60,122 bases of DNA from Flaviaesturariibacter aridisoli. GTDB lineage: Bacteria > Bacteroidota > Bacteroidia > Chitinophagales > Chitinophagaceae. The notes beneath the pieces were generated by a model. The model was not told the origin of the DNA. It made no database searches and worked only from the letters and a program-made list of their open reading frames with translations. Position numbers and translations under genes: made by a program. The stretch lies in the NCBI RefSeq assembly GCF_004343705.1, contig NZ_SKFH01000022.1:1-60122 (forward strand), in the 5' to 3' direction. Below are positions 5,667-48,248 of this stretch, piece after piece. How positions within the stretch are numbered: position 1 is the first letter of the stretch; each line of letters begins with the position of its first letter.

Positions 5667-5696
5667 TTCTTAAAGGTAGCTGCGGGAGGGAGTTTG

Positions 5697-5829
5697 TGAG
5701 GCGTGAGGCGTGAGGCGTGAGGCGTGAGTGGTGAGCGCAAACGCCGTTAACCGAGAACGGAAGCCGTAGGCTTCCGTTCTCGGTGCCGCGCATCGTGATT
5801 CACGCCTCACGGCTCACGCTTCACGTTTC
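5697..5829. repeat. Nested inverted repeat with 7-bp repeat arms and a 16-bp hairpin
   Basis: The left arm has at least five tandem GTGAGGC-like heptamers (5697-5735). The right arm (about 5798-5828) has the complementary CACGCCT and CACGCTT heptamers. Between them is a perfect 16-bp stem with a GTA loop, 5750-5765 paired with 5769-5784, containing GAACGGAAGCC. The right arm ends directly before the stop codon of the serine hydrolase gene (5830). The hairpin can act as a 3'-end structure for that gene. The same design recurs at 24498 and 39938. Confidence 0.85.
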
Positions 5830-7180: not shown

Positions 7181-8407
7181 ATGAATACCAGCTATCCCAA
7201 AGAGAAGATCAACATCCTGCTGCTGGAAAACGTGAGCGACACGGCCGTGGAGAATTTCCGCCGTGCGGGTTACACCGGGGTGCGCAAGCTTGCGCGGGCG
7301 CTGCCGGAGGAAGAGCTGGTGCACGAGCTTCGCAACACCCACCTGCTGGGCATCCGCTCCAAGACCCAGCTCACGGCGCGGGCTCTTGCCGCCGCCGAGC
7401 GCCTGCAGGCCGTTGGCTGCTTCTGCATCGGGGTAAACCAGGTAGACCTCGGGGCCGCTACCGAACGCGGCGTAGCGGTATTCAATGCGCCCTATAGCAA
7501 TACGCGCTCCGTGGCCGAGCTGGTCATCGGCGCCGCCATCATGCTCATCCGCCGCGTGCCCGACAAGAACCAGGCGGCCCATGAAGGCATCTGGCTGAAG
7601 GAAGCTTCGGGCGCCTACGAGCTGCGGGGTAAGACTATCGGGATCATCGGCTACGGCAACATCGGCTCGCAGGTGAGCGTGCTGGCCGAAGCGCTGGGGA
7701 TGAAAGTACTTTTCTACGACATCGAAACAAAGCTGCCCCTGGGCAACGCGGCCGACGCCCGCAGCCTCAAAGCCCTGCTTAGCGCTGCCGACGTGGTGAC
7801 CGTGCACGTGCCGGAAACCGACCAGACCCGCAACCTGCTCAACAAAACCAACCTCAAGTGGATGAAGAAAGGCGCCATCCTGATCAACTACGCCCGCGGC
7901 GAGGTGATCGACCTTCCGGCGCTGCGCAAGGCGCTCGAAAGCGGGCAGGTAGGAGGGGCGGCCGTGGACGTGTTCCCGGTGGAGCCCGAAAAGAACGGCG
8001 ATCGCTTCAGCTCGCCGCTGCAGGGCTTGTCCAACGTGCTGCTCACACCCCATATCGGCGGATCTACGGAAGAGGCGCAGGTAAACATCGGTGAGGATGT
8101 GAGCAACAAGCTGCTGCAGTACCTCGAAAAGGGTGCTTCTCTCGGGTCGCACACGGTGCCGGCGCTCGCGCTGCCGCCGCAGGAAGGTGCCCACCGGATC
8201 CTGCACATTCATCGAAATGTGCCCGGTGTTCTTTCGCAGATCAACGGACAACTCTCGCAGCACCGGATCAATATCGTGGGGCAATACCTGAAGACGAACG
8301 AGGCGATCGGCTACGTGGTAGTGGATGTGGACAAGCAGCTTTCCAAGCGGGCGCTGAGCCTGCTGAAGGAGGTGCCGGAGACCGTCAAGGTGCGATTATT
8401 GTATTGA
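7181..8407 (+). CDS. serA: D-3-phosphoglycerate dehydrogenase with ACT domain
   Basis: A 408-residue enzyme of the phosphorylated serine pathway: oxidation of 3-phosphoglycerate to 3-phosphohydroxypyruvate with NAD. The nucleotide-binding GYGNIG is at 157-162 and the catalytic residues are Arg239 (YARGE), Glu268 (VEPE) and His291 (TPHIGGST), aligning one-for-one with E. coli SerA Arg240/Glu269/His292. Residues 338-408 form an ACT domain (HIHRNVPGVLSQIN start), the serine feedback site. Length matches E. coli (410). A Pro/Thr-free linker joins the two parts. It is followed 28 bp later by the NDH-2 gene. Confidence 0.95.
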   Translation: MNTSYPKEKINILLLENVSDTAVENFRRAGYTGVRKLARALPEEELVHELRNTHLLGIRSKTQLTARALAAAERLQAVGCFCIGVNQVDLGAATERGVAVFNAPYSNTRSVAELVIGAAIMLIRRVPDKNQAAHEGIWLKEASGAYELRGKTIGIIGYGNIGSQVSVLAEALGMKVLFYDIETKLPLGNAADARSLKALLSAADVVTVHVPETDQTRNLLNKTNLKWMKKGAILINYARGEVIDLPALRKALESGQVGGAAVDVFPVEPEKNGDRFSSPLQGLSNVLLTPHIGGSTEEAQVNIGEDVSNKLLQYLEKGASLGSHTVPALALPPQEGAHRILHIHRNVPGVLSQINGQLSQHRINIVGQYLKTNEAIGYVVVDVDKQLSKRALSLLKEVPETVKVRLLY

Positions 8408-20136: not shown

Positions 20137-20157
20137 ATGCTAGGGCGGGAAAAAATA

Positions 20158-20628
20158 CTGCAGGCCTGTAAGCCGGATTCTGTCTCTGTCTGCCTTTGCC
20201 GGGGCGCAGGCAGGTCAGAGCGCTATCATTTATCTGGGACGTCCATTACTGGCCGCCTCAAGCTGCCTACCCTGGAACACTTCCCCTTGCGGAGAATGAA
20301 GCGAGCCGCCTCAGGTTGTTCCTATACATGGCATTTCAGCGCGCAAGGTTTACCCGCGAAGCACCTTCCGATGCAACGCCGTGGGCTCTTACCCCACATT
20401 TTCACGATTACCCTGTCTCCCCGCCGCAGTACGCCTGTGGGCGGACGAAGGCGGGCGGACACACGCTTCGGGGTTGCCCCCGGAGCTCAGGCTCCAATTT
20501 TCTGTGGCACTGTCTCGATCCCGGCTCTGCCGCCGGAATGTCCCGCCGTTAGCGGGATGCGCTGCCCTGTGCTGTCCGGACTTTCCTACCCCAACCTGAA
20601 AGTTTGGGATCGATAGCGCGGCCTGCAG
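20158..20628 (-). ncRNA. rnpB: RNase P RNA (bacterial type)
   Basis: The minus strand begins with the 9-nt P1 strand CTGCAGGCC at 20628-20620 and ends with its complement GGCCTGCAG at 20166-20158. Conserved P4-region sequence GGAAAGTCCGGACAG is near 20588-20572, and the universal 3' ACAGAATCCGGCTTACA (20181-20165) precedes the closing P1 strand. A run of T follows P1 and can terminate transcription. The RNA trims the 5' leaders of tRNA precursors. At about 471 nt it is longer than E. coli's 377 nt because of GC-rich helix extensions around 20430-20550. Frames across it are not coding. Confidence 0.95.
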
Positions 20629-20633
20629 TGTCG

Positions 20634-20649: not shown

Positions 20650-21339
20650 TTACAGGATGGCAATTTCAGTGCGGCGGTTCTTCCGACGTCCTTCTAAAGA
20701 ACCGTTATCCGCTACCGGTTTTTTAGCACCGAAACCCTTCGCCTCCAATTGTGTTGCCTGCACGCCCTTGCGCAGCAAGTACGCCCGTACGGCCTGTGCC
20801 CGCAGTTCGGATAGTTGCTTATTGGCTGCCGCAGCGCCAATGTTGTCGGTATGACCACCGATGCGGTAACGTTCGGTGGGATGCCTGCGCATGTAGGAAG
20901 CTATCCCATCAAGTGTTGGCAAAATCGCCGCCTGGAGCCGGGCGGTTCCACTGGCAAACAGCACGTCAGGCAATGTGTAGAGCCGCGGCGCGTCGAATTC
21001 AATCTCTATGGAAAGCGCCCGCAGGGCATAATCGTCCTGGCGCGGTTGCGGCGTATCGAAGTCCGAATACACCGTCGTATCGGCCAGTGTTCGGATGCGA
21101 ACGCTGAAAGGCGCGCCGGCGGGGAGCTTTACCTGAAAGCTCCCGTCTGCGTCGCTCAGGGCTTTGGTTACCTGGCGGTTGTCGCGCCGAACGAAATGGA
21201 TCTCTTCGCCGGGAAGGCGCTTGCCGGCGGAGTTGAGCACAACGGCTTTGACGAGCACTTCGGGGCTTTACTGCCCATGGGCAACTGAATGGATAGTAAC
21301 GAGCAGGCACAGGGATCCCAGCAATCGGTAAAGGCGCAT
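20650..21339 (-). pseudogene. OmpA-family protein interrupted by an in-frame stop after its signal peptide
   Basis: From ATG 21339 the frame encodes a 23-residue signal peptide (MRLYRLLGSLCLLVTIHS to AHGQ). A TAA then occurs at 21268-21270, and the same frame continues with SPEVLVKAVVLN and an intact domain to the stop at 20650. The mature part has a small beta-sandwich-like segment (about residues 28-80 of the full frame) and a C-terminal OmpA peptidoglycan-binding domain: GHTDNIGAAAANKQLSELRA, then KGFGAKKPV and GRRKNRRTEIAI. Such proteins tether the outer membrane to the wall. One C-to-T change (CAA to TAA) explains the break. A GTG at 21258 could start an unsecreted form. It may be a real mutation, a sequencing error or readthrough. 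Confidence 0.75.
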
Positions 21340-21419
21340 AAGACAGTTTTGGTGGCTGATGAAAATATAGGTTCTTTTTTTAATTCTTGTATTTTTACAG
21401 TACCATTAAAACTACTGCT

Positions 21420-23123
21420 GTGCGAAACGTACTGCTTGGGATCCTGCTGTTTGTTGCCGGCGGCCTCCGGGCCCAGGAGGCAAAAGGCGTATCGGCTCCG
21501 GCCGCCAAAAGTGCGGCCAAAGGAAAAACCTACGCGCTCATCGTGGGTGTGGCCGACTACCAGAACCTGCCGCGCCTCAGCTACTCTCCCGCCGACGCCC
21601 GGGCCCTCGCCGACTACCTGGTGCAGGTGCAGCGACTCCCGGCGAGCCAGGTTTTCTGCTATGTGAACGAAGAAGCGTCACGGATCAACATTGTGGACCG
21701 CCTATATGCCATCGCCGACGAGCTGAAACCCGGCGACCAGTTCCTGTTTTACTTCTCGGGGCACGGTGATTGGGAGTCGAAGCTGTCCGACAACGCACTC
21801 CTGCTGCTGAACCGGGCGCCCAACAAAAACTACCTCCGTTACCCCGACCAATACCTCGATTGCAGCCTGCTCAACGAGTTTCTCCGCCGACTGTCGGAGC
21901 AGCAGGTCAAGACGCTGCTCATTGCCGACGCCTGCCATTCGGGCAACCTGAGCGGCGGCCGCAGCGGCGTGGAAAACACGGCGCTGCAACTGAAACAAGG
22001 CTGGAAGAACGTCGTGCGCATCCTATCCTGCATGCCCGATGAATTCAGCTATGAAGATGCCCGCTGGGGCGGTGGCCGCGGTGTATTTTCCTACTACCTC
22101 ACCGAAGGCCTCAAAGGACTGGTGCGCAAAGACGCCAACGCGCCGTTTGACCTGACTATCGGAGAACTCCGCTCCTACCTGGAAGACAACCTGAACCGCG
22201 AGACGGGCGGTAAGCAAACGCCTTTGTTTGAAGGCGATCCGCGGTTTGTGGTGGCGCGCGTGGAAAAGAGCGCGAAACCGGCCCGCCCCCACCCGGTTGC
22301 GGCCGCGCCCAAAGGCGGCGGCGCGCCGGTAGCCAAAGGGGCCGTCGATACGAGCAGCTCCGAGTTTCGCGCTTTGAGCTTGCAATTCGGGGAAGCGATC
22401 GATCGCCGGGAGCTGACAGCGCCGGCCTCCGCCTCCGCCTTTGGCCTTTACCGGCGGTTGTTGCGCCTGGCCCCCGAAGACTACCTCGAGGGCTATCGCC
22501 TGCGCCTGCTGGCGGCGGTGCAAAGCCATTATCGCACGTACCTCGACGGCTTTTACAAAGAGCAAGGCTTCCCGGAAGAGGAGCTCCAGGTGCTGCGTTC
22601 GGAACTGGAAGCCGCCCGCAACAGCTGCAGCCGCCGTAAAGCCCTCCGCGACCAGTTTGAAAGCGAACGCCTTTTTATTGAAGCCTGCCTCGTTACCTAC
22701 GCCGCCCAACACGGCGGCGCCGAACGCCTTCCCGCCTCTGAATTACAACGTGCCGCTACTTTGCTCGACAGCGCACTGAAGCTGACTCCCTGGGAGCCGT
22801 CGCTTTACCGCAAGCTGGGGGATTGTTACATCGAAATGAATCCTGCCAAAGCTATTGCTGCGCTCAATCGCCTCGTGACCCTGCTGCCGCGCGACGGTGC
22901 CGCCTACAACGCGCTGGGCGTGGCCCACTTCGGCCTCGGCCAGTACGACGAAGCGATCCGTGCCCTGCAGACGGCCACCCGCCTCTCACCCGACGCTTCA
23001 AATTACTATTATAACCTCGGTCGCTGCTACGAAAAGAAAGGATTGCAAGGTGAAGCCAACCTTTATTTCAAAAAGGCACAAACGCGCAACCAGCCCGAGC
23101 CGCGCGAAAACGATTACCAATAA
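21420..23123 (+). CDS. Secreted caspase-family (C14) protease with C-terminal TPRs
   Basis: A 567-residue exported protein. The GTG at 21420 is chosen because it yields a clear signal peptide (MRNVLLGILLFVAGGLRAQ); an upstream TTG at 21387 adds 11 non-signal residues. The caspase-like p20 fold is at about 36-285: YALIVGVADYQN, catalytic His115 in FYFSGHGD, and catalytic Cys172 in IADACHSGN. After a Pro/Ala/Lys linker (about 285-320), residues 330-560 form helices ending with TPRs (YNALGVAHFGLGQYDEAI region and NYYYNLGRCYEKKG region). It probably acts as a specific protease in the periplasm or at the surface, with the TPRs selecting partners. The CHAT gene starts 9 bp later. Confidence 0.88.
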   Translation: MRNVLLGILLFVAGGLRAQEAKGVSAPAAKSAAKGKTYALIVGVADYQNLPRLSYSPADARALADYLVQVQRLPASQVFCYVNEEASRINIVDRLYAIADELKPGDQFLFYFSGHGDWESKLSDNALLLLNRAPNKNYLRYPDQYLDCSLLNEFLRRLSEQQVKTLLIADACHSGNLSGGRSGVENTALQLKQGWKNVVRILSCMPDEFSYEDARWGGGRGVFSYYLTEGLKGLVRKDANAPFDLTIGELRSYLEDNLNRETGGKQTPLFEGDPRFVVARVEKSAKPARPHPVAAAPKGGGAPVAKGAVDTSSSEFRALSLQFGEAIDRRELTAPASASAFGLYRRLLRLAPEDYLEGYRLRLLAAVQSHYRTYLDGFYKEQGFPEEELQVLRSELEAARNSCSRRKALRDQFESERLFIEACLVTYAAQHGGAERLPASELQRAATLLDSALKLTPWEPSLYRKLGDCYIEMNPAKAIAALNRLVTLLPRDGAAYNALGVAHFGLGQYDEAIRALQTATRLSPDASNYYYNLGRCYEKKGLQGEANLYFKKAQTRNQPEPRENDYQ

Positions 23124-23132
23124 ACCAACGGC

Positions 23133-24497
23133 ATGACGAAACTTCTACTCCCCCTGCTCTCCTTTTTTTCACTGCCCGCCTTCGCCCAATGGGATTCAGT
23201 TTCCACCACCATCGATACGGTGCAGTCTGCCGGGGGCTCTTTCCAGGTTTCGGACGGCTGGAGTTTTTCTTCGGCCGAAGAATACGACGCCTCCGATTTT
23301 ATCCAGGCCAAGGTGGACCAGTTTTATGTAAGCGTGGAGCGCAAGCCCGATTCGCTGGCGCAGGTGAGCTGGCGGCTGGTGCAGCAGCGCCTGCGCCCGG
23401 GAGAGCTGTTCGTCGACTTTCTGCTTACCGAGTTCAATGACAAGGAGTGCTTTCTTACCTCCATCATCCGGCCCTCCGGGCTGCCCGAGGTGGTGATCAT
23501 TCCGCGGTTGCAGGAGCGCGGCACGAGCGTGAAGCAGGCCAACGCGCGGGGCATCGACGTCGGCAACGCACAGGCCGCCGGGTCCTATATGGCTTATAAA
23601 AATCTCCTGGCGCACCTGGAGCCCAAGCTCGATGGCGCGCAAACGATCTATTACTCCACGAGCAATGATCTCAACCTCGCCAACCTGAAATTTCTGAAGG
23701 GCATCGATGGTCGTTTTCTTTTTGAGAAATACAACCTGGTACGCCTGCATTCTGCCGCCTCTTTCCTTAGCCGCCATAACCGGCTCCTGTTTCCGAAAAA
23801 GATGAAAGTGCTACTGCTGGGCAATGTAGCCTACGATTGCGGTGGTGAGACCGAGCACTACTGGGACGCGCTTCCCGGCTCGGGCGTGGAGATCCGCAAC
23901 ATCGCCGCGCTGCTGAAAAGCGCGCACCAGGTCGACGTGCTCGACTCCTGCGCCGCCACGGAAAGCCGGTTCGTAGGAGCAGTGAATAAAACGCCGTACG
24001 ACATCCTGCACCTCGCCACCCATGGCTTTTATTTTCCGCCTGCCGGCAGCCAGCGCTTCGGTCTTGCCGCAGGTTCATACCCGCTGCTGTTTACCGGCAT
24101 TGTACTCGCCGGCGCCAACGGCAAGAACGCCAGCGTCGACTACGCCAACGAAGGCGGTATGTTCACGACGATGGATTTCAAAAAGCTCAATGTGGGCAAT
24201 ATCCGCCTGGTGGTGCTGAGCACCTGTTTTTCGGGTACCGGCTTTTCGGGCGAAGACCGGAGCGAGCATTCCTCGGCACCCTTCGGACTCACGCTGGCGC
24301 TGCTGCGCCAGGGTATCCAAGCCATGGTACTTTCCAACCGGGCCATCCCCGACAAGGAGACCATGGAGTTCATGACTCAATTCTATCGCAACCTGGCCAG
24401 GACGCTCGATGCCGATGCGGCCTTTACACAAACGCTCCGGGAATTGCAGAAGACAAAGCCCCGCGTCGACTGGAGCTTTATGGACCTGGTACATTGA
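23133..24497 (+). CDS. Secreted CHAT-domain protease homologue
   Basis: A 454-residue exported protein. The signal peptide is residues 1-19 (MTKLLLPLLSFFSLPAFAQ). Residues about 145-454 match a CHAT (caspase-HetF associated with TPRs) domain: the YKNLLAHLEPKLDG start, ILHLATHGFYF with candidate catalytic His297, and VVLSTCFSGTG with candidate catalytic Cys365. The conserved FGLTLALLRQGIQAMVLSNRAIPD helix-strand follows. No TPR is present in this chain; TPRs are in the partner upstream, 9 bp away, so the pair splits an arrangement that other CHAT proteins carry in one polypeptide. The N-terminal 140 residues are unrecognised. The stop is followed after 3 bp by a nested repeat. Confidence 0.87.
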   Translation: MTKLLLPLLSFFSLPAFAQWDSVSTTIDTVQSAGGSFQVSDGWSFSSAEEYDASDFIQAKVDQFYVSVERKPDSLAQVSWRLVQQRLRPGELFVDFLLTEFNDKECFLTSIIRPSGLPEVVIIPRLQERGTSVKQANARGIDVGNAQAAGSYMAYKNLLAHLEPKLDGAQTIYYSTSNDLNLANLKFLKGIDGRFLFEKYNLVRLHSAASFLSRHNRLLFPKKMKVLLLGNVAYDCGGETEHYWDALPGSGVEIRNIAALLKSAHQVDVLDSCAATESRFVGAVNKTPYDILHLATHGFYFPPAGSQRFGLAAGSYPLLFTGIVLAGANGKNASVDYANEGGMFTTMDFKKLNVGNIRLVVLSTCFSGTGFSGEDRSEHSSAPFGLTLALLRQGIQAMVLSNRAIPDKETMEFMTQFYRNLARTLDADAAFTQTLRELQKTKPRVDWSFMDLVH

Positions 24498-24603
24498 TCG
24501 TGAGGCGTGAGCCGTGAATCGCGACGCGCGGAAATGAAGGAACGGATGCCAATGGCATCCGTTCTTCGTAAAAGGCGTATTTGCTTACGGCTCACGCCTC
24601 ACG
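24498..24603. repeat. Nested inverted repeat with 7-bp arms and a 25-nt hairpin
   Basis: Left arm GTGAGGC-GTGAGCC-GTGAATC heptamers (24500-24520). Right arm about 24585-24603 with ACGGCTC/ACGCCTC heptamers. In the middle GAACGGATGCC-AAT-GGCATCCGTTC (24540-24564) is a perfect 11-bp stem. It fills the whole gap between the convergent CHAT and Smr genes and its right arm touches the Smr stop codon (24604). Confidence 0.85.
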
Positions 24604-25623
24604 TTATTTGTACTGGAAATGAATCTCCGTCGCACCAAACCCGAAGTCGGCCATGTATTGATTCACGAAGGATTTCACCTCTTTTTTACGGCGCAGGATG
24701 TCGTGGATGTCATCGCGGAGGCGGCCCTTTCCGATGCCGTGAATGACGGTCATCTTGGGCAGGCGATGCGCTAAAGCCAGGTCATACCATTTTTCAAATT
24801 CCTTCAGTTGGATGCCGAGGATCGCGGTGTTGCTCATGCCGCTGTGGTCGTCCACCAGTTTTTCAATGTGCAGGTCCACCACGGTGCGGGCAGGCGGCAG
24901 GTGGCGCCGCGCATCGCTGGCATCGTAGATCGGCGCACCCGCGTGGGCGCGGTAGCCGAAATCGACGGGCGCTTCTTCCACCTTTTTCGGATAATTGTCG
25001 AACAGCTTGAAGGTAAAGGTGGCGCCTCCCTCCTGCTTCAGCTTTTCTATGCGGTCGAAGAGCTGTTTCGGCTTCAGGCGAAGCGTGTATTCGTGGTAGT
25101 CGGCCTTGCTTTTCTGCGGGTTCTTGAGCGAAAATTCAAAAGAGAACACCGGGCTGTCGCTCAGGTCGGAAAAGGGAATGTCGTGCAGGTAGAAGTCTTC
25201 GAACGCGTGGAGCACGCCATTGAGGTCGAAGTCGCTCCGGCCGAAGAACAGTTGCTTGTAGGTGAACTTGTATTCGTCTTCGGTATGATTCACTAGGTAG
25301 ATCTTCAGGGAAAGCACCACGTCGTCGCCGAATTCATCCACGTCGAACTTGGGCAGGAAGGAAAGCCATACACCGTCCACGACACGCTCTTTCGGGGCCT
25401 TTTCCTTGCGCACGTTCTCGATATAGGTCTTTTCCTTCTTCGGCTCGAACAGCTTCTTTTCGGTGAAGCGCTTGAAATAGGGAAAGTCCAGCTGGTCGAT
25501 GTAGGCCGGGAATTTCACCCCCCGCACCTGGATCATGACCATTTTCTCGTTCATGATGTCGATCACTTCGCCCTCTTCGTTGGTGGCGCGCACCACGATC
25601 TTGTCACCGATCTCGAATTTCAT
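24604..25623 (-). CDS. DUF2027 and Smr domain protein
   Basis: A 339-residue protein. Residues 1-60 form a small beta-barrel-like start (KFEIGDKIVVRATNEEGEVIDIM). A Bacteroidota-specific DUF2027 region follows. The C-terminal Smr domain (about 245-339) has DLHIEKLVDDH at 250-260 and the HGIGKGRLRDDIH motif at 295-307, as in MutS2 C-termini. Smr domains nick or bind nucleic acid (branched DNA or stalled-ribosome mRNA). No MutS-like ATPase is present, so it is a stand-alone Smr protein. A TACCTTTA-type box lies just upstream. Confidence 0.88.
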   Translation of the reverse strand: MKFEIGDKIVVRATNEEGEVIDIMNEKMVMIQVRGVKFPAYIDQLDFPYFKRFTEKKLFEPKKEKTYIENVRKEKAPKERVVDGVWLSFLPKFDVDEFGDDVVLSLKIYLVNHTEDEYKFTYKQLFFGRSDFDLNGVLHAFEDFYLHDIPFSDLSDSPVFSFEFSLKNPQKSKADYHEYTLRLKPKQLFDRIEKLKQEGGATFTFKLFDNYPKKVEEAPVDFGYRAHAGAPIYDASDARRHLPPARTVVDLHIEKLVDDHSGMSNTAILGIQLKEFEKWYDLALAHRLPKMTVIHGIGKGRLRDDIHDILRRKKEVKSFVNQYMADFGFGATEIHFQYK

Positions 25624-29150: not shown

Positions 29151-29222
29151 ATCGTGAACCGTCAGCCGTCAGTCGTGAACAGCGGCGATGTGTTGCCCAC
29201 GGTTCACGCCTTACGCCTCACG
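29151..29222. repeat. Inverted 7-bp repeat spacer between the prenyl synthase gene and rnr
   Basis: Left GTGAACC/GTCAGCC/GTCAGTC/GTGAACA heptamers (29154-29182) face ACGGTTC/ACGCCTT/ACGCCTC (29200-29221), with an irregular centre and no strong hairpin. The right arm abuts the rnr stop codon at 29223. Confidence 0.75.
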
Positions 29223-39937: not shown

Positions 39938-40067
39938 ATCGTGAAGCGTGAGCCGCGAATCGTGAGCGGCTTGCGCCAATAAAAAGGAACGGATGCCATT
40001 GGCATCCGTTCTTCAATAGGGTCGTTAGCACTCACGGCTGATGGCTGACGGCTCACGCTTCACGTTC
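39938..40067. repeat. Nested inverted repeat with 7-bp arms and a 25-nt hairpin
   Basis: Left GTGAAGC/GTGAGCC/GCGAATC/GTGAGCG heptamers (39942-39968). Hairpin GAACGGATGCC-ATT-GGCATCCGTTC (39987-40011). Right arm of ACGGCTG/ACGGCTC/ACGCTTC heptamers (40034-40065) ends at the sigma factor's stop codon (40068). The hairpin is nearly identical to that at 24540 (loop ATT instead of AAT). Confidence 0.85.
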
Positions 40068-44742: not shown

Positions 44743-47700
44743 TTACCAAAGTACCCAGTTGCTGGCGCTGTTCTCAGCGCGCGAGGTGGGTACTTGTTTT
44801 CCTTCGGTCATTTCCGGCACCCGCCGGTTCACATATTCTTTCAGCGCGCGCACCGAAGGCGATGGGGTCGTGCGTAAGAATTCCAATAACGCATAGGTAA
44901 ATACGCCGTTCCGCAGGTCTGTCCGCTCGAGCGCCGATTGCATGCCTCCCGCGGCGGAAATGATCGTTGCCCCCGTACTTCGCCCCACATTCACAAAAAC
45001 CTGTTGCATCAACTCAAAGGCATTCGGCCTTCCCTGCGCCACCTGCTTTAGCTCCACACCTTTTTTGGAGGGACCGGCTGCCTGTGTCGCCAAATAATTC
45101 GTTGCTTCCTCTTTGTCCACCTCGCCGCTATGACACGCATCGATCAGTAGCAACTTTTGACGCGCCGGTATAGAGTCGAGCAGTGATTCCAATGCGTCGT
45201 AAGGTAAGCCCCGCTCCTGCGGCTGCGCAAAGTCCACATCGTACGTTGAAAGAAAATAATCATATGCGTTACTGAGCAGACCGTGGCCTGAATAGGCGAG
45301 GATGATTTTATCGATCTCCCGCGAGCTGGCCAGCCGGCTCTTCAAAGCCCTAACCCGTTCCGTGGTTACTTGTTCATTGAAGAGTGTATCGATCTGGATG
45401 CGGCGGCCATACTTCGCCTTCAGCAGCAGGGCCAGGTCGCGGATGTCTTTCACACTGTAGCGTAAATTGTGTTCCCGCTGCCGGAAGCGGTCGATACCAA
45501 TACCGGCAAAATAAAGGCGAACGGCCGTATCGGTTCCCGTACGCACTATTTCCAGGGGCATGCGATAGCTCTCCACGGCCTCACTGTTGGTGACGGATGT
45601 CTCGATCTTGTTGCTGCCCGTACCGAGACGGATGGTGAGTACGGTGTCGAAAGCATGCCGGTGTTTGTCCCCCAGCGTCCGGCCGCGGGCACCGAAGAGT
45701 GGCACCTCGTTCACCCAAACATTCCATCGGTCCAGCTGCAGCACTGAATCCATTGCAACGATATGCAGGCGAAGGGTATCGGAGCTTAAGGCGCGCGGCA
45801 GGTCGGCCCGGCCAGCAAAGTCGGCCACCGGCATGCGGTACCCTGTATTCGTCCAGTGTGTTGTATCGATACCTAATTTCCGGATCCGCTTTTGGTAGGC
45901 GAGCCGGAACGACGATACCAGGGAGCTGTCGGCAATGCCGATTGCTTGCAGCACTTTATCAGGCCGGTGGTAGCGTACATCCAGCTGTTCAAAGCTTACA
46001 ACACCGAGTTGCGGGGTTACATAATGCAGCCGGCGCGCCGCGTCGGCGGTGGCATGGTAGTAATTCCCGGCCGCCATCAGCATGAAGCCCGTAGAATCCA
46101 GGCCCAGGAACGAATACAGTTCTTCGCCCGTCGCTGCGTTCCATACACGGCAGGTCTGGTCGCGCGAACAGGTGAGCACCCGCTTGCCGTCCGGGCTGAA
46201 GACGCTGCTGTATACCTGATCTCCATGTCCTTTCAGTTGGGTCAGCGCCTTTCCCGATGTACTCCACAAGCGGGCCGTGCCGTCCCAGGACGCGGTCAGG
46301 ACCATTTTTTCGTCCGGGCTGAACCGTGCTAGGTTCAGGATGCCCGTGTGCCCTTTCAGGTCGGCCAGCACCCGGCCCGTTTGCACATCCCAAAGCTTTG
46401 CGGTCTCATCGCCGGAGGCAGTCAGCAGGCGTTTGCCATCGGCAGAAAAGATGGCGCTGTACACGCCGCCCTCGTGTTCGGTAAACTGCAGCAATTCTTC
46501 ACCCGTTGCGGTATTCCACAGCCGCGCGGTAAAATCCTGTGAGGGAGTAACGATCCGGCTTCCGTCAGGACTGAAGGAGGGTAAAAAGACGTTTTCTCCA
46601 TGGCCGGACAGGGTATGCATCAAGTGACCCGTTCCGGCGTCCCAAACCTTGACCGTATGATCATCGGAAGCGGTGATCACCCATTTCCCATCTGGACTAA
46701 AAGCCCCTGAGTTCACGCGGTGCGTATGACCGGTTAACGTGGCCAGTAGGGAGTCGGGCGACAGGCTCCAGACGCGTCCGGTACCGTCCTCCGAGGTCGA
46801 CAGCAGGCGCCGGCCATCCGGGCTGAGCGCAAGGCTGTGTATGGACATCGAATGCCCCCCGATACGGCGTAGTATTTTTCCCTGGTCGATTTGGACCAGC
46901 ACAATGCTGTCGTACCCGATCAGCACCATTGTCGCGCCATCGGGCCCAAACAGGAAGCGCAAATCGTCACCGAACGAAGTTTGGGGCAGTACCGCTTTGA
47001 GTGTTCCGGTCGCGGCATCCCAGTATTTTGTTTGACGAAAGCCGCTCGTAATGATCGTTTTTCCGTCGGGACTGAACAAAGCGGCCTGGGTATCATCAGT
47101 ATAGCCCCGTAGCGGCACCCCTTGCCCGTTGGCTATTTGCCAAAGGTGCGCATCACCCATCCAAGAGTAGCTCCCGACAAAACGCCCATCCCTGCTGAAG
47201 GAAAGTCCGCCGCAGGCCTCTTGCGGCAGCCGGGCCACCTCGGTGCCGTCTTCCTGCCAAAGTACGATGCCGCTAAAGCGGCCGTAAACTGATAGGGCGA
47301 CCTGGTGCGTTCCCGGTTGAAACTGTGCGTCATTCACCCAGCTATTTTTAACCGTAAAAACCCGGCAGGTGCCATTCGTACGGAGGTCCCACAAACGCGC
47401 GTCGCTGTTCGGTGCATAGGAAAGCAGCAGTTGACCGTCGCTGCTGAAAACAACGGATTCGGGGGCCTTGTTGTGCCCGCGGAGCACCAGCAGTTGGGCA
47501 CCGCCGGTATCCCAGAGGCGCAGGGTGCTGTCGGCGCTGGCGGTAGCGATGCGCCTCCCGTCTTCGCTGAATACGGCATCCCGCAGCGCTTGGGTGTGCC
47601 CGTTCAGAACAGCAAGCGTCGCTCCGGTCCGGGCATCCCACAGGCGGGCACTCCGGTCGCTTGATGCGGTAAGCACACGTTGTCCATCGGGACTGAAGCG

Positions 47701-48198
47701 GGCCGACTTGAGCGCGCCCCTGTGTCCTTTCAAGATTCGGACTGTTTGCCGGGTGGCAACGTCCCAGATCCTCGCCGTGCCGTCTGCGGAAGCCGTAATA
47801 ATCCTGTGGCCGTCCGGGCTGAAAGCGCCCGATTGAAGGCTTCGGCTATGCCCAACGAGGTCGCCAACGAAGGCGCCGGTGGTAGCGTCCCAGATCTTTG
47901 CCAGCGAATCGTCGAAGGCGGGGGTGGCGAGCAGGAGGCGCCCGTCGGGGCTGAAGGAGGCTTTGTAAACGCTGCCCTGGAATCCCTTGAGGTCGGCCAG
48001 CAATGCGCCCGTAGCGGCATCCCAGATCTTGGCGGTATGGTCGCCGGAAGCCGTGGCCACGCGTTTTCCATCGGGACTGTAAGCCAAACCGTTGATGCGC
48101 CCGTTGTGACCGATGGGAAGTACCAGGCGAGGCAGCTGTGCCTGCAAACCGGTTGCCCAACAAGCCAGGAGCAGTAAGAAAATCCGGCAGTGGTGCAT
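44743..48198 (-). CDS. Secreted WD40-repeat protein with C-terminal caspase domain
   Basis: A 1151-residue exported protein (ATG 48198 gives the signal MHHCRIFLLLLACWATGLQAQ; an upstream TTG is unlikely). Residues about 30-680 have 14-16 WD40 repeats (GHxxxVxSxxFSPDGKxxxTAS...LWD pattern), enough for two seven-bladed propellers; repeats 7, 8 and 10 are the most degenerate. After a beta-rich linker (680-870) the C-terminal caspase-like domain begins near 895. It has candidate catalytic His972 (AYSGHG) and Cys1022 (LIDACHSGE). Similar fusions of WD40 and caspase occur in Cyanobacteria and some Bacteroidota. It is monocistronic and may sense a ligand in the periplasm. Confidence 0.9.
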   Translation of the reverse strand: MHHCRIFLLLLACWATGLQAQLPRLVLPIGHNGRINGLAYSPDGKRVATASGDHTAKIWDAATGALLADLKGFQGSVYKASFSPDGRLLLATPAFDDSLAKIWDATTGAFVGDLVGHSRSLQSGAFSPDGHRIITASADGTARIWDVATRQTVRILKGHRGALKSARFSPDGQRVLTASSDRSARLWDARTGATLAVLNGHTQALRDAVFSEDGRRIATASADSTLRLWDTGGAQLLVLRGHNKAPESVVFSSDGQLLLSYAPNSDARLWDLRTNGTCRVFTVKNSWVNDAQFQPGTHQVALSVYGRFSGIVLWQEDGTEVARLPQEACGGLSFSRDGRFVGSYSWMGDAHLWQIANGQGVPLRGYTDDTQAALFSPDGKTIITSGFRQTKYWDAATGTLKAVLPQTSFGDDLRFLFGPDGATMVLIGYDSIVLVQIDQGKILRRIGGHSMSIHSLALSPDGRRLLSTSEDGTGRVWSLSPDSLLATLTGHTHRVNSGAFSPDGKWVITASDDHTVKVWDAGTGHLMHTLSGHGENVFLPSFSPDGSRIVTPSQDFTARLWNTATGEELLQFTEHEGGVYSAIFSADGKRLLTASGDETAKLWDVQTGRVLADLKGHTGILNLARFSPDEKMVLTASWDGTARLWSTSGKALTQLKGHGDQVYSSVFSPDGKRVLTCSRDQTCRVWNAATGEELYSFLGLDSTGFMLMAAGNYYHATADAARRLHYVTPQLGVVSFEQLDVRYHRPDKVLQAIGIADSSLVSSFRLAYQKRIRKLGIDTTHWTNTGYRMPVADFAGRADLPRALSSDTLRLHIVAMDSVLQLDRWNVWVNEVPLFGARGRTLGDKHRHAFDTVLTIRLGTGSNKIETSVTNSEAVESYRMPLEIVRTGTDTAVRLYFAGIGIDRFRQREHNLRYSVKDIRDLALLLKAKYGRRIQIDTLFNEQVTTERVRALKSRLASSREIDKIILAYSGHGLLSNAYDYFLSTYDVDFAQPQERGLPYDALESLLDSIPARQKLLLIDACHSGEVDKEEATNYLATQAAGPSKKGVELKQVAQGRPNAFELMQQVFVNVGRSTGATIISAAGGMQSALERTDLRNGVFTYALLEFLRTTPSPSVRALKEYVNRRVPEMTEGKQVPTSRAENSASNWVLW

Positions 48199-48248
48199 AA
48201 CCCAAAAATAGGGCAACCTTGCCGGCCCGGGTTGTCGCGGGCGATTCT

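Follow-up and report, generated by a model that had tools for sequence, protein, structure and literature searches.

An Apparently Exported Caspase–CHAT Protease Pair between rnpB and smr in Flaviaesturariibacter aridisoli, a Possible Satellite of a Trypsin/Caspase/CHASE2 Cluster

In the 60,122-nucleotide stretch of Flaviaesturariibacter aridisoli DNA analyzed here (contig NZ_SKFH01000022.1, called the window below), the gene of a caspase (C14) with C-terminal tetratricopeptide repeats (TPRs) is followed on the same strand, after a gap of 9 nt, by the gene of a CHAT protease that is devoid of TPRs (Table 1). Our tentative reading, to which we assign a probability of about 0.36, is that the two genes form a transcription unit that is specific to the lineage and encodes two exported cysteine proteases of clan CD, possibly a satellite of a trypsin/caspase/CHASE2 cluster. 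The gene content, the intact catalytic dyads, the export-like signals, and the history of the site, as far as it is given below, are read from the sequence; the partnership, the envelope role, and the specificity are inferred. A first-pass annotation of this DNA had already described two adjacent genes at 21420..24497, 9 bp apart, and the coordinates and gap agree with that description.

The caspase protein matches Peptidase_C14 of Pfam over residues 37–271 (E 1.8e-16; 61.0 bits against a curated cut-off of 21.4) and has its TPRs at about residues 461–557. The CHAT protein matches CHAT (PF12770) over residues 155–443 (E 6.6e-36), the domain being above its curated cut-off and the fold in agreement as well, and no second Pfam family was found in it up to E 0.1. 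The TPRs thus lie on the caspase partner and not in CHAT, as had been noted earlier. His115 and Cys172 of the caspase are present in SGHG and DACHSG contexts and are invariant in an alignment of the window caspase with two related caspase-TPR proteins, while His297 and Cys365 of CHAT are present and invariant with respect to three CHAT relatives (four sequences aligned); these are the four residues to which the first-pass annotation had pointed. A search of solved structures with the CHAT profile gave a single row, with E 0.74, and in the search with the caspase profile the best 60 of the 207 rows all match the TPR part. The caspase model, which has a mean predicted local distance difference test (pLDDT) score of 44, was used in no search.

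Both proteins appear to be exported. The best 10-residue hydropathy of the N-terminus is 3.23 for the caspase and 2.14 for CHAT, with plausible cleavage sites in both, compared to 0.32–1.56 for five other proteins of the window that served as cytoplasmic controls. This is a crude hydropathy check rather than a trained predictor, with start codons chosen by us for some of the relatives, and to that extent the signal peptides proposed earlier for both proteins are borne out. One caspase relative (genome G232), which has an N-terminal extension, reaches only 1.49. No tail of the type IX secretion system (T9SS) is listed by Pfam for either protein. The two genes are likely transcribed into one mRNA, as the first-pass annotation had it: the terminator scan lists nothing at the junction (23124–23132) and a very stable hairpin follows CHAT. 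The terminator-like match of the scan at this hairpin is on the minus strand.

Table 1. Features of the caspase–CHAT site in the window
Feature	Position	Strand	Remarks
RNase P RNA (rnpB), left boundary of the site	20153..20629	-	Rfam RF00010, E 5.3e-67
OmpA-family gene, divergent from caspase	20650..21258	-	OmpA E 1.3e-23
Upstream region, probable promoter of the pair	21360..21419	+	resembles the region before the PMG_218 CHAT gene
Caspase (C14) with C-terminal TPRs	21420..23123	+	GTG start, 567 aa
C14 catalytic domain; TPRs	~21528-22232; ~22800-23090	+	parts of the caspase gene
TPR-less CHAT protease	23133..24497	+	454 aa; CHAT domain ~23595-24461
Hairpin between the convergent CHAT and smr genes, probable terminator	24498..24603	.	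-69.6 kcal/mol, z -10.8
Smr-domain gene, right boundary of the site	24604..25623	-	Smr E 2.1e-9

Within the genus, smr has a match in 16 of 18 genomes, that of the window counted. Of the 15 other smr loci, 14 (all but G517) were surveyed, along with two of other genera: 13 of the 14 have neither caspase nor CHAT, CHAT being present in one (PMG_218) and the caspase in none. The history of the site is best seen by comparison with the species PMG_218 of the same genus, whose locus (L031) has the order SIR2, rnpB, CHAT, smr, with no match to OmpA or caspase. Its CHAT protein, too, begins with an export-signal-like stretch and, at 452 residues, is too short to hold TPRs. The 60 bp before this gene find their best match in the window in the 60 bp before the caspase gene, out of 12,014 positions taken at 10-base intervals along both strands, and conversely the 60 bp before the window caspase match best before CHAT within L031. 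The similarity was equaled by none of 2000 single-base shuffles, which preserved the base composition but not neighboring bases, and the same 60 bp of PMG_218 show no resemblance to the 60 bp before the window CHAT gene. In the window, CHAT is therefore separated by the caspase gene from the promoter that directly precedes it in PMG_218. The resemblance does not extend beyond these 60 bp next to the gene: with 112 bp compared, 10 of 1000 shuffles are as good, and the signal regions of the window caspase and the PMG_218 CHAT are not alike (240 of 1000 shuffles as good). The region upstream of the caspase of another relative, G522, has no clear match to either one (196 of 2000 and 783 of 2000 shuffles). 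Either the caspase entered behind the CHAT promoter in the line of the window, or PMG_218 lost the caspase, as far as can be judged from the sequences. Insertion of a single block does not explain everything, because the OmpA gene is located on the far side of that promoter.

CHAT of PMG_218 and CHAT of the window are 73% identical; the two genes differ with a ratio of nonsynonymous to synonymous substitution rates (dN/dS) of 0.156 and a dS of 1.28, close to the dS of three flanking genes (1.12–1.30); both copies have therefore been kept by selection and have diverged with the genome. A search of 84,980 species genomes, a scan that detects close relatives only, confirmed four CHAT loci, of which the one in L031 is 71% identical to the window CHAT and the other three 27–31%, and among 244 genomes of the family the next best match is 29% identical. 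PMG_218 also resembles the window more closely than does G521, which has neither caspase nor CHAT at the site: the identities for PMG_218 and G521 are, respectively, 89 vs 86% for smr, 83 vs 79% for SIR2, and 86 vs 82% for a gene that we label saccharopine-dehydrogenase-like. There are two exceptions, a gene labeled by us as cupin-like, which is matched in G521 and unmatched in L031, and the permease. The permease adjoining smr in PMG_218 (L031 8485–10296) is 51% identical to that of the window, while the one of G521 is 91% identical; judging from these values, the permease has probably been replaced in PMG_218.

A search of the genus with the caspase matched 5 of 18 genomes at 1e-8, of which G522 (54% identical) and G524 (36% over residues 8–526) stand out. 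In 394 genomes of the family, a profile gave scores near 940 bits only for the window's own genome (G000), G524, and G232, the three from which it had been built, and the next score was 410. In the tree, the window caspase groups with that of G522 (support 100/98; the G522 row covers only the part before its stop), then with G524 (91/61, weak), and then with G232 on a long branch (97/97). The G522 caspase adjoins a divergent OmpA gene (44% identical to that of the window) in the same layout as in the window; this caspase (L132 6670–8385) has one in-frame TAG at 7432–7434. The G522 genome is 62% complete with no match to smr, and its rnpB–smr site was thus not seen; a frame of the size of a TPR-CHAT lies on another of its contigs. 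Comparison of the caspase pieces and OmpA with G522 gave saturated synonymous sites and hence no usable dN/dS. An OmpA-domain gene also adjoins the caspase in G232, tail to tail; there (L134 5446–11991) caspase and OmpA lie between a Peptidase_S51 gene, which we take to be cyanophycinase-like, and a cyanophycin-synthetase-like gene.

The connection to a larger protease cluster comes from G524, in which a caspase-TPR gene is directly followed by a TPR-CHAT gene of 1243 aa. The same cluster encodes a thioredoxin-domain protein, a trypsin-type protease, a sigma factor of the extracytoplasmic function (ECF) type (TIGR02937 over cut-off), a second caspase, a CHASE2 protein, one protein with a sub-threshold TPR match, and one labeled FecR-like without any model match. 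Contig C8 of the window's genome carries homologues (38–56%) of the thioredoxin, second-caspase, trypsin-type, CHASE2, and FecR-like genes; a long caspase-TPR lies close by, and there is no match to CHAT or a sigma factor in 28 kb. The trypsin-type protein of C8 resembles HtrA/DegP models below their cut-offs (177 vs 416 bits) and has a PDZ match. On this contig (L136 8998–14994, L137 1014–6608), the thioredoxin-domain, caspase, trypsin-type, and CHASE2 genes and two unmatched genes stand in a row, and the long caspase-TPR gene comes after that row on the opposite strand. The pair is not inside such a cluster: it lies on contig C22, between rnpB and smr, and the cluster on C8. In PMG_218 the same genes are present from the end of the second caspase onward; its trypsin-type gene (L133 480–1928) matches only positions 52–144 of the 144-position Trypsin_2 model, and the protease may therefore be without the front of its domain.

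In G755, which is not a member of the family, genes for a TPR-CHAT, a trypsin-type protease, and a caspase follow one another, and a contig from Bacteroidales (L034) carries a trypsin-type protease gene, a caspase gene, and two CHATs, one of which is only a fragment and the other a frame on the opposite strand. The G524, G755, and L034 loci were reached by following matches and are examples, not a rate. The first-pass annotation had suggested a search for caspase–CHAT neighborhoods; such neighbors do recur in these three loci, caspase-TPR again coming directly before TPR-CHAT in G524, but linkage is uncommon among the matches listed. In a sample of the class restricted to genomes at least 90% complete, CHAT occurs in 86 and C14 in 92 of 247 genomes. 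When the best 150 CHAT places were compared with the best 150 C14 places (the window pair is below both cuts), 36 genomes were in both lists and a single pair was within 10 kb, that of G755, the next ones being 17 and 24 kb apart.

A number of observations weigh against the tentative reading of the pair as a transcription unit attached to such a cluster. The Cys motif of the window CHAT is altered, STCFSG where SACETG is usual, and residues 365–379 of its model, the Cys loop, are below pLDDT 50; CHAT activity is not assured, because the motif is changed and the model is poor at that place. In the caspase clade formed by the window, G522, G524, and G232, only the caspase of G524, one of four, is in such a cluster; trypsin, CHASE2, and CHAT have no match in the 16-kb stretches of G522 and G232, and in particular CHAT has none in the 16 kb around the G522 caspase. 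The long caspase-TPR adjoins the second-caspase type in G040, G130, G195, G243, and G441, where 14–18 kb contain no trypsin, CHASE2, or CHAT match. Finally, in a quick version of the CHAT tree, the branch of the window CHAT is very long and there is no specific relationship to the G524 CHAT, because of which the window and G524 pairs may be of independent origin.

The first alternative is a chance neighborhood, in which two independently gained exported proteases ended up between rnpB and smr under a common promoter and without a common function. We consider this nearly as likely as the tentative reading. The spot seems prone to gain of genes, since other genes also occur between smr and rnpB in relatives, such as the lipoprotein-like open reading frame (ORF) of G004. 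In five of the 14 loci, 105–158 bp separate the match to rnpB from that to smr (rnpB is unmatched in L104 and L108, and some of the locus stretches stop early at contig ends). A weak CHAT match in L104 (E 0.002) was dropped, no CHAT ORF being listed there. A chance neighborhood would also account for the rarity of linkage among the class places listed, for a CHAT tree without sign that CHAT followed the caspase, and for the occurrence of CHAT alone in PMG_218 and of the caspase alone in G522. It is less easily reconciled with a caspase that is placed, with a junction of 9 bp, behind the promoter of the PMG_218 CHAT, and with the caspase and CHAT neighbors of G524, G755, and L034.

The first-pass annotation had regarded unlinked genes in relatives as an argument against its interpretation, and this is in part what is found, in PMG_218 for CHAT and in G522 for the caspase. 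A conserved two-gene module as a general claim is accordingly rejected, because the PMG_218 site is without the caspase and the G522 caspase is without an adjoining CHAT. The idea that the caspase TPRs replace those of CHAT itself is weakened, because a TPR-less CHAT occurs without this caspase in PMG_218. What stands of the earlier interpretation are the dyads, the export-like signals, and the recurrence in G524; the conserved linkage does not, and a CHAT cascade is, as discussed below, already known.

If the pair is indeed a satellite of the cluster, it would work in trans with the trypsin/HtrA-like protease, caspase, and CHASE2 proteins as an accessory arm. An envelope signal would be sensed, with CHASE2 as the membrane sensor of the cluster, and the caspase and the CHAT protease would cut specific periplasmic substrates, the caspase TPRs recruiting a partner. 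By analogy to metacaspases, the caspase would presumably cut after Arg or Lys, because Asp170 stands two residues before the Cys. A broader and doubtful extension is that a hitherto unrecognized network of extracytoplasmic proteases in Bacteroidota reads envelope damage by cleavage, the pair being a detached portable arm of it with the TPRs on the caspase. Its proposed members would be a trypsin/HtrA-like protease, at least one exported caspase, an exported CHAT, and a CHASE2 sensor, joined in some cases by an ECF sigma factor.

We have also considered a proteolytic cascade inside the pair, in which one protease cleaves and thereby activates the other in the periplasm; a cascade with one protease cutting the other had been put forward in the first-pass annotation. 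The same-strand genes 9 bp apart, the two intact dyads, the direct succession of caspase-TPR and TPR-CHAT in G524, and the CHAT-led cascade known in type III clustered regularly interspaced short palindromic repeats (CRISPR) systems (PMC11229360) are all consistent with it. However, purifying selection maintains the CHAT orthologue of PMG_218 in the absence of this caspase, and the G522 caspase relative has no adjoining CHAT, although G522 says less here because its caspase copy carries a stop. Such a cascade is possible but is not favored, and we regard it as unlikely. A phage-defense or programmed-death module is more improbable still: the PADLOC caspase (4e-18) and TPR (0.00099) models match the caspase protein, and peptidases of the caspase and CHAT types are frequent effectors of conflict systems (PMC10907252, PMC8195603), but both proteins have export-signal-like N-termini, PADLOC gives no match to the CHAT protein, the EACC1-associated caspase model (NF047832) is not reached (64.6 against a cut-off of 140 bits), and the adjacent genes scanned encode OmpA, Smr, and SIR2 domain proteins.

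The pair can be further compared with a number of named systems. The SAVED-CHAT of type III CRISPR differs in that no SAVED domain is matched by Pfam in the window CHAT, which has, in addition, an export-signal-like N-terminus. In the Craspase of type III-E CRISPR, the TPR-CHAT protein Csx29, which we take to be cytoplasmic, has its TPRs in cis, while the 454-residue window CHAT matched no TPR. The catalytic Cys is followed by Phe in the window CHAT, by Tyr in that of PMG_218, and by Glu659 in Csx29. DdvA, a transmembrane anti-sigma factor whose CHAT-like part is presumably extracytoplasmic, combines this part with an anti-sigma part in a single membrane protein, whereas the window CHAT stands alone. 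Gingipains carry a T9SS tail, of which Pfam lists none for the two window proteins.

Some of these combinations are already in print, namely metacaspases with OmpA or sigma-factor neighbors, a caspase with CHASE2 and an ECF sigma factor, and the CHAT-led cascade. The operons of prokaryotic metacaspases likewise have an OmpA neighbor, in 14 of 217 predicted cases, and sigma factors in a conserved type (PMC3501461, the main text of which does not contain the word CHAT). Caspase, CHASE2, and ECF sigma factor genes occur together in EACC2-caspase neighborhoods, as in the G524 cluster, but caspase and CHASE2 can there be parts of one EACC2 protein (PMC8195603), while G524 has separate genes plus a trypsin-type protease and CHAT. 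The first-pass annotation had considered a two-protease, extracytoplasmic module to be unlike any known CRISPR or inflammasome-like arrangement; this does not hold for the cascade, since the CHAT protease of type III CRISPR SAVED-CHAT acts via a proteolytic cascade (PMC11229360). A pair of exported caspase-TPR and TPR-less CHAT is not announced in the titles and abstract openings among the literature matches listed, subscription papers and preprints being mostly outside these.

The loci described above provide a compact comparison set, with one species having CHAT alone at the site, one having the caspase alone, and a third in which a larger cluster contains the two together. In bacteria, caspases and CHAT proteases have mostly been described as immune effectors that act within the cell. 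An apparently exported pair, together with relatives near trypsin-type, CHASE2, and ECF-type sigma genes, suggests that these enzymes may also serve envelope surveillance.

Some further features of the window and its genome can be mentioned. The OmpA gene (21339–20650, minus strand) has an in-frame TAA at 21270–21268 that cuts its export signal (21339–21271) from the rest, while the frame of the G522 homologue is uninterrupted; the window copy is either a decayed gene or the result of an assembly error. Repeats of the heptamers GTGAGGC/GTGAGCC are present at 5696–5824, 24500–24602, 29197–29221, and 39941–40063, three of these sites having them on both strands, with 12 matches against 0.03 expected, and they frame the hairpin at 24498–24603. 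The genome (4.37 Mb in 84 contigs) has 11 C14 matches, 10 of them in the class search, and six CHAT matches, two of which fall on caspase genes, one being the window caspase at 21420–23123. A further caspase of the window (44743–48216, minus strand) has 1157 residues and WD40 repeats.

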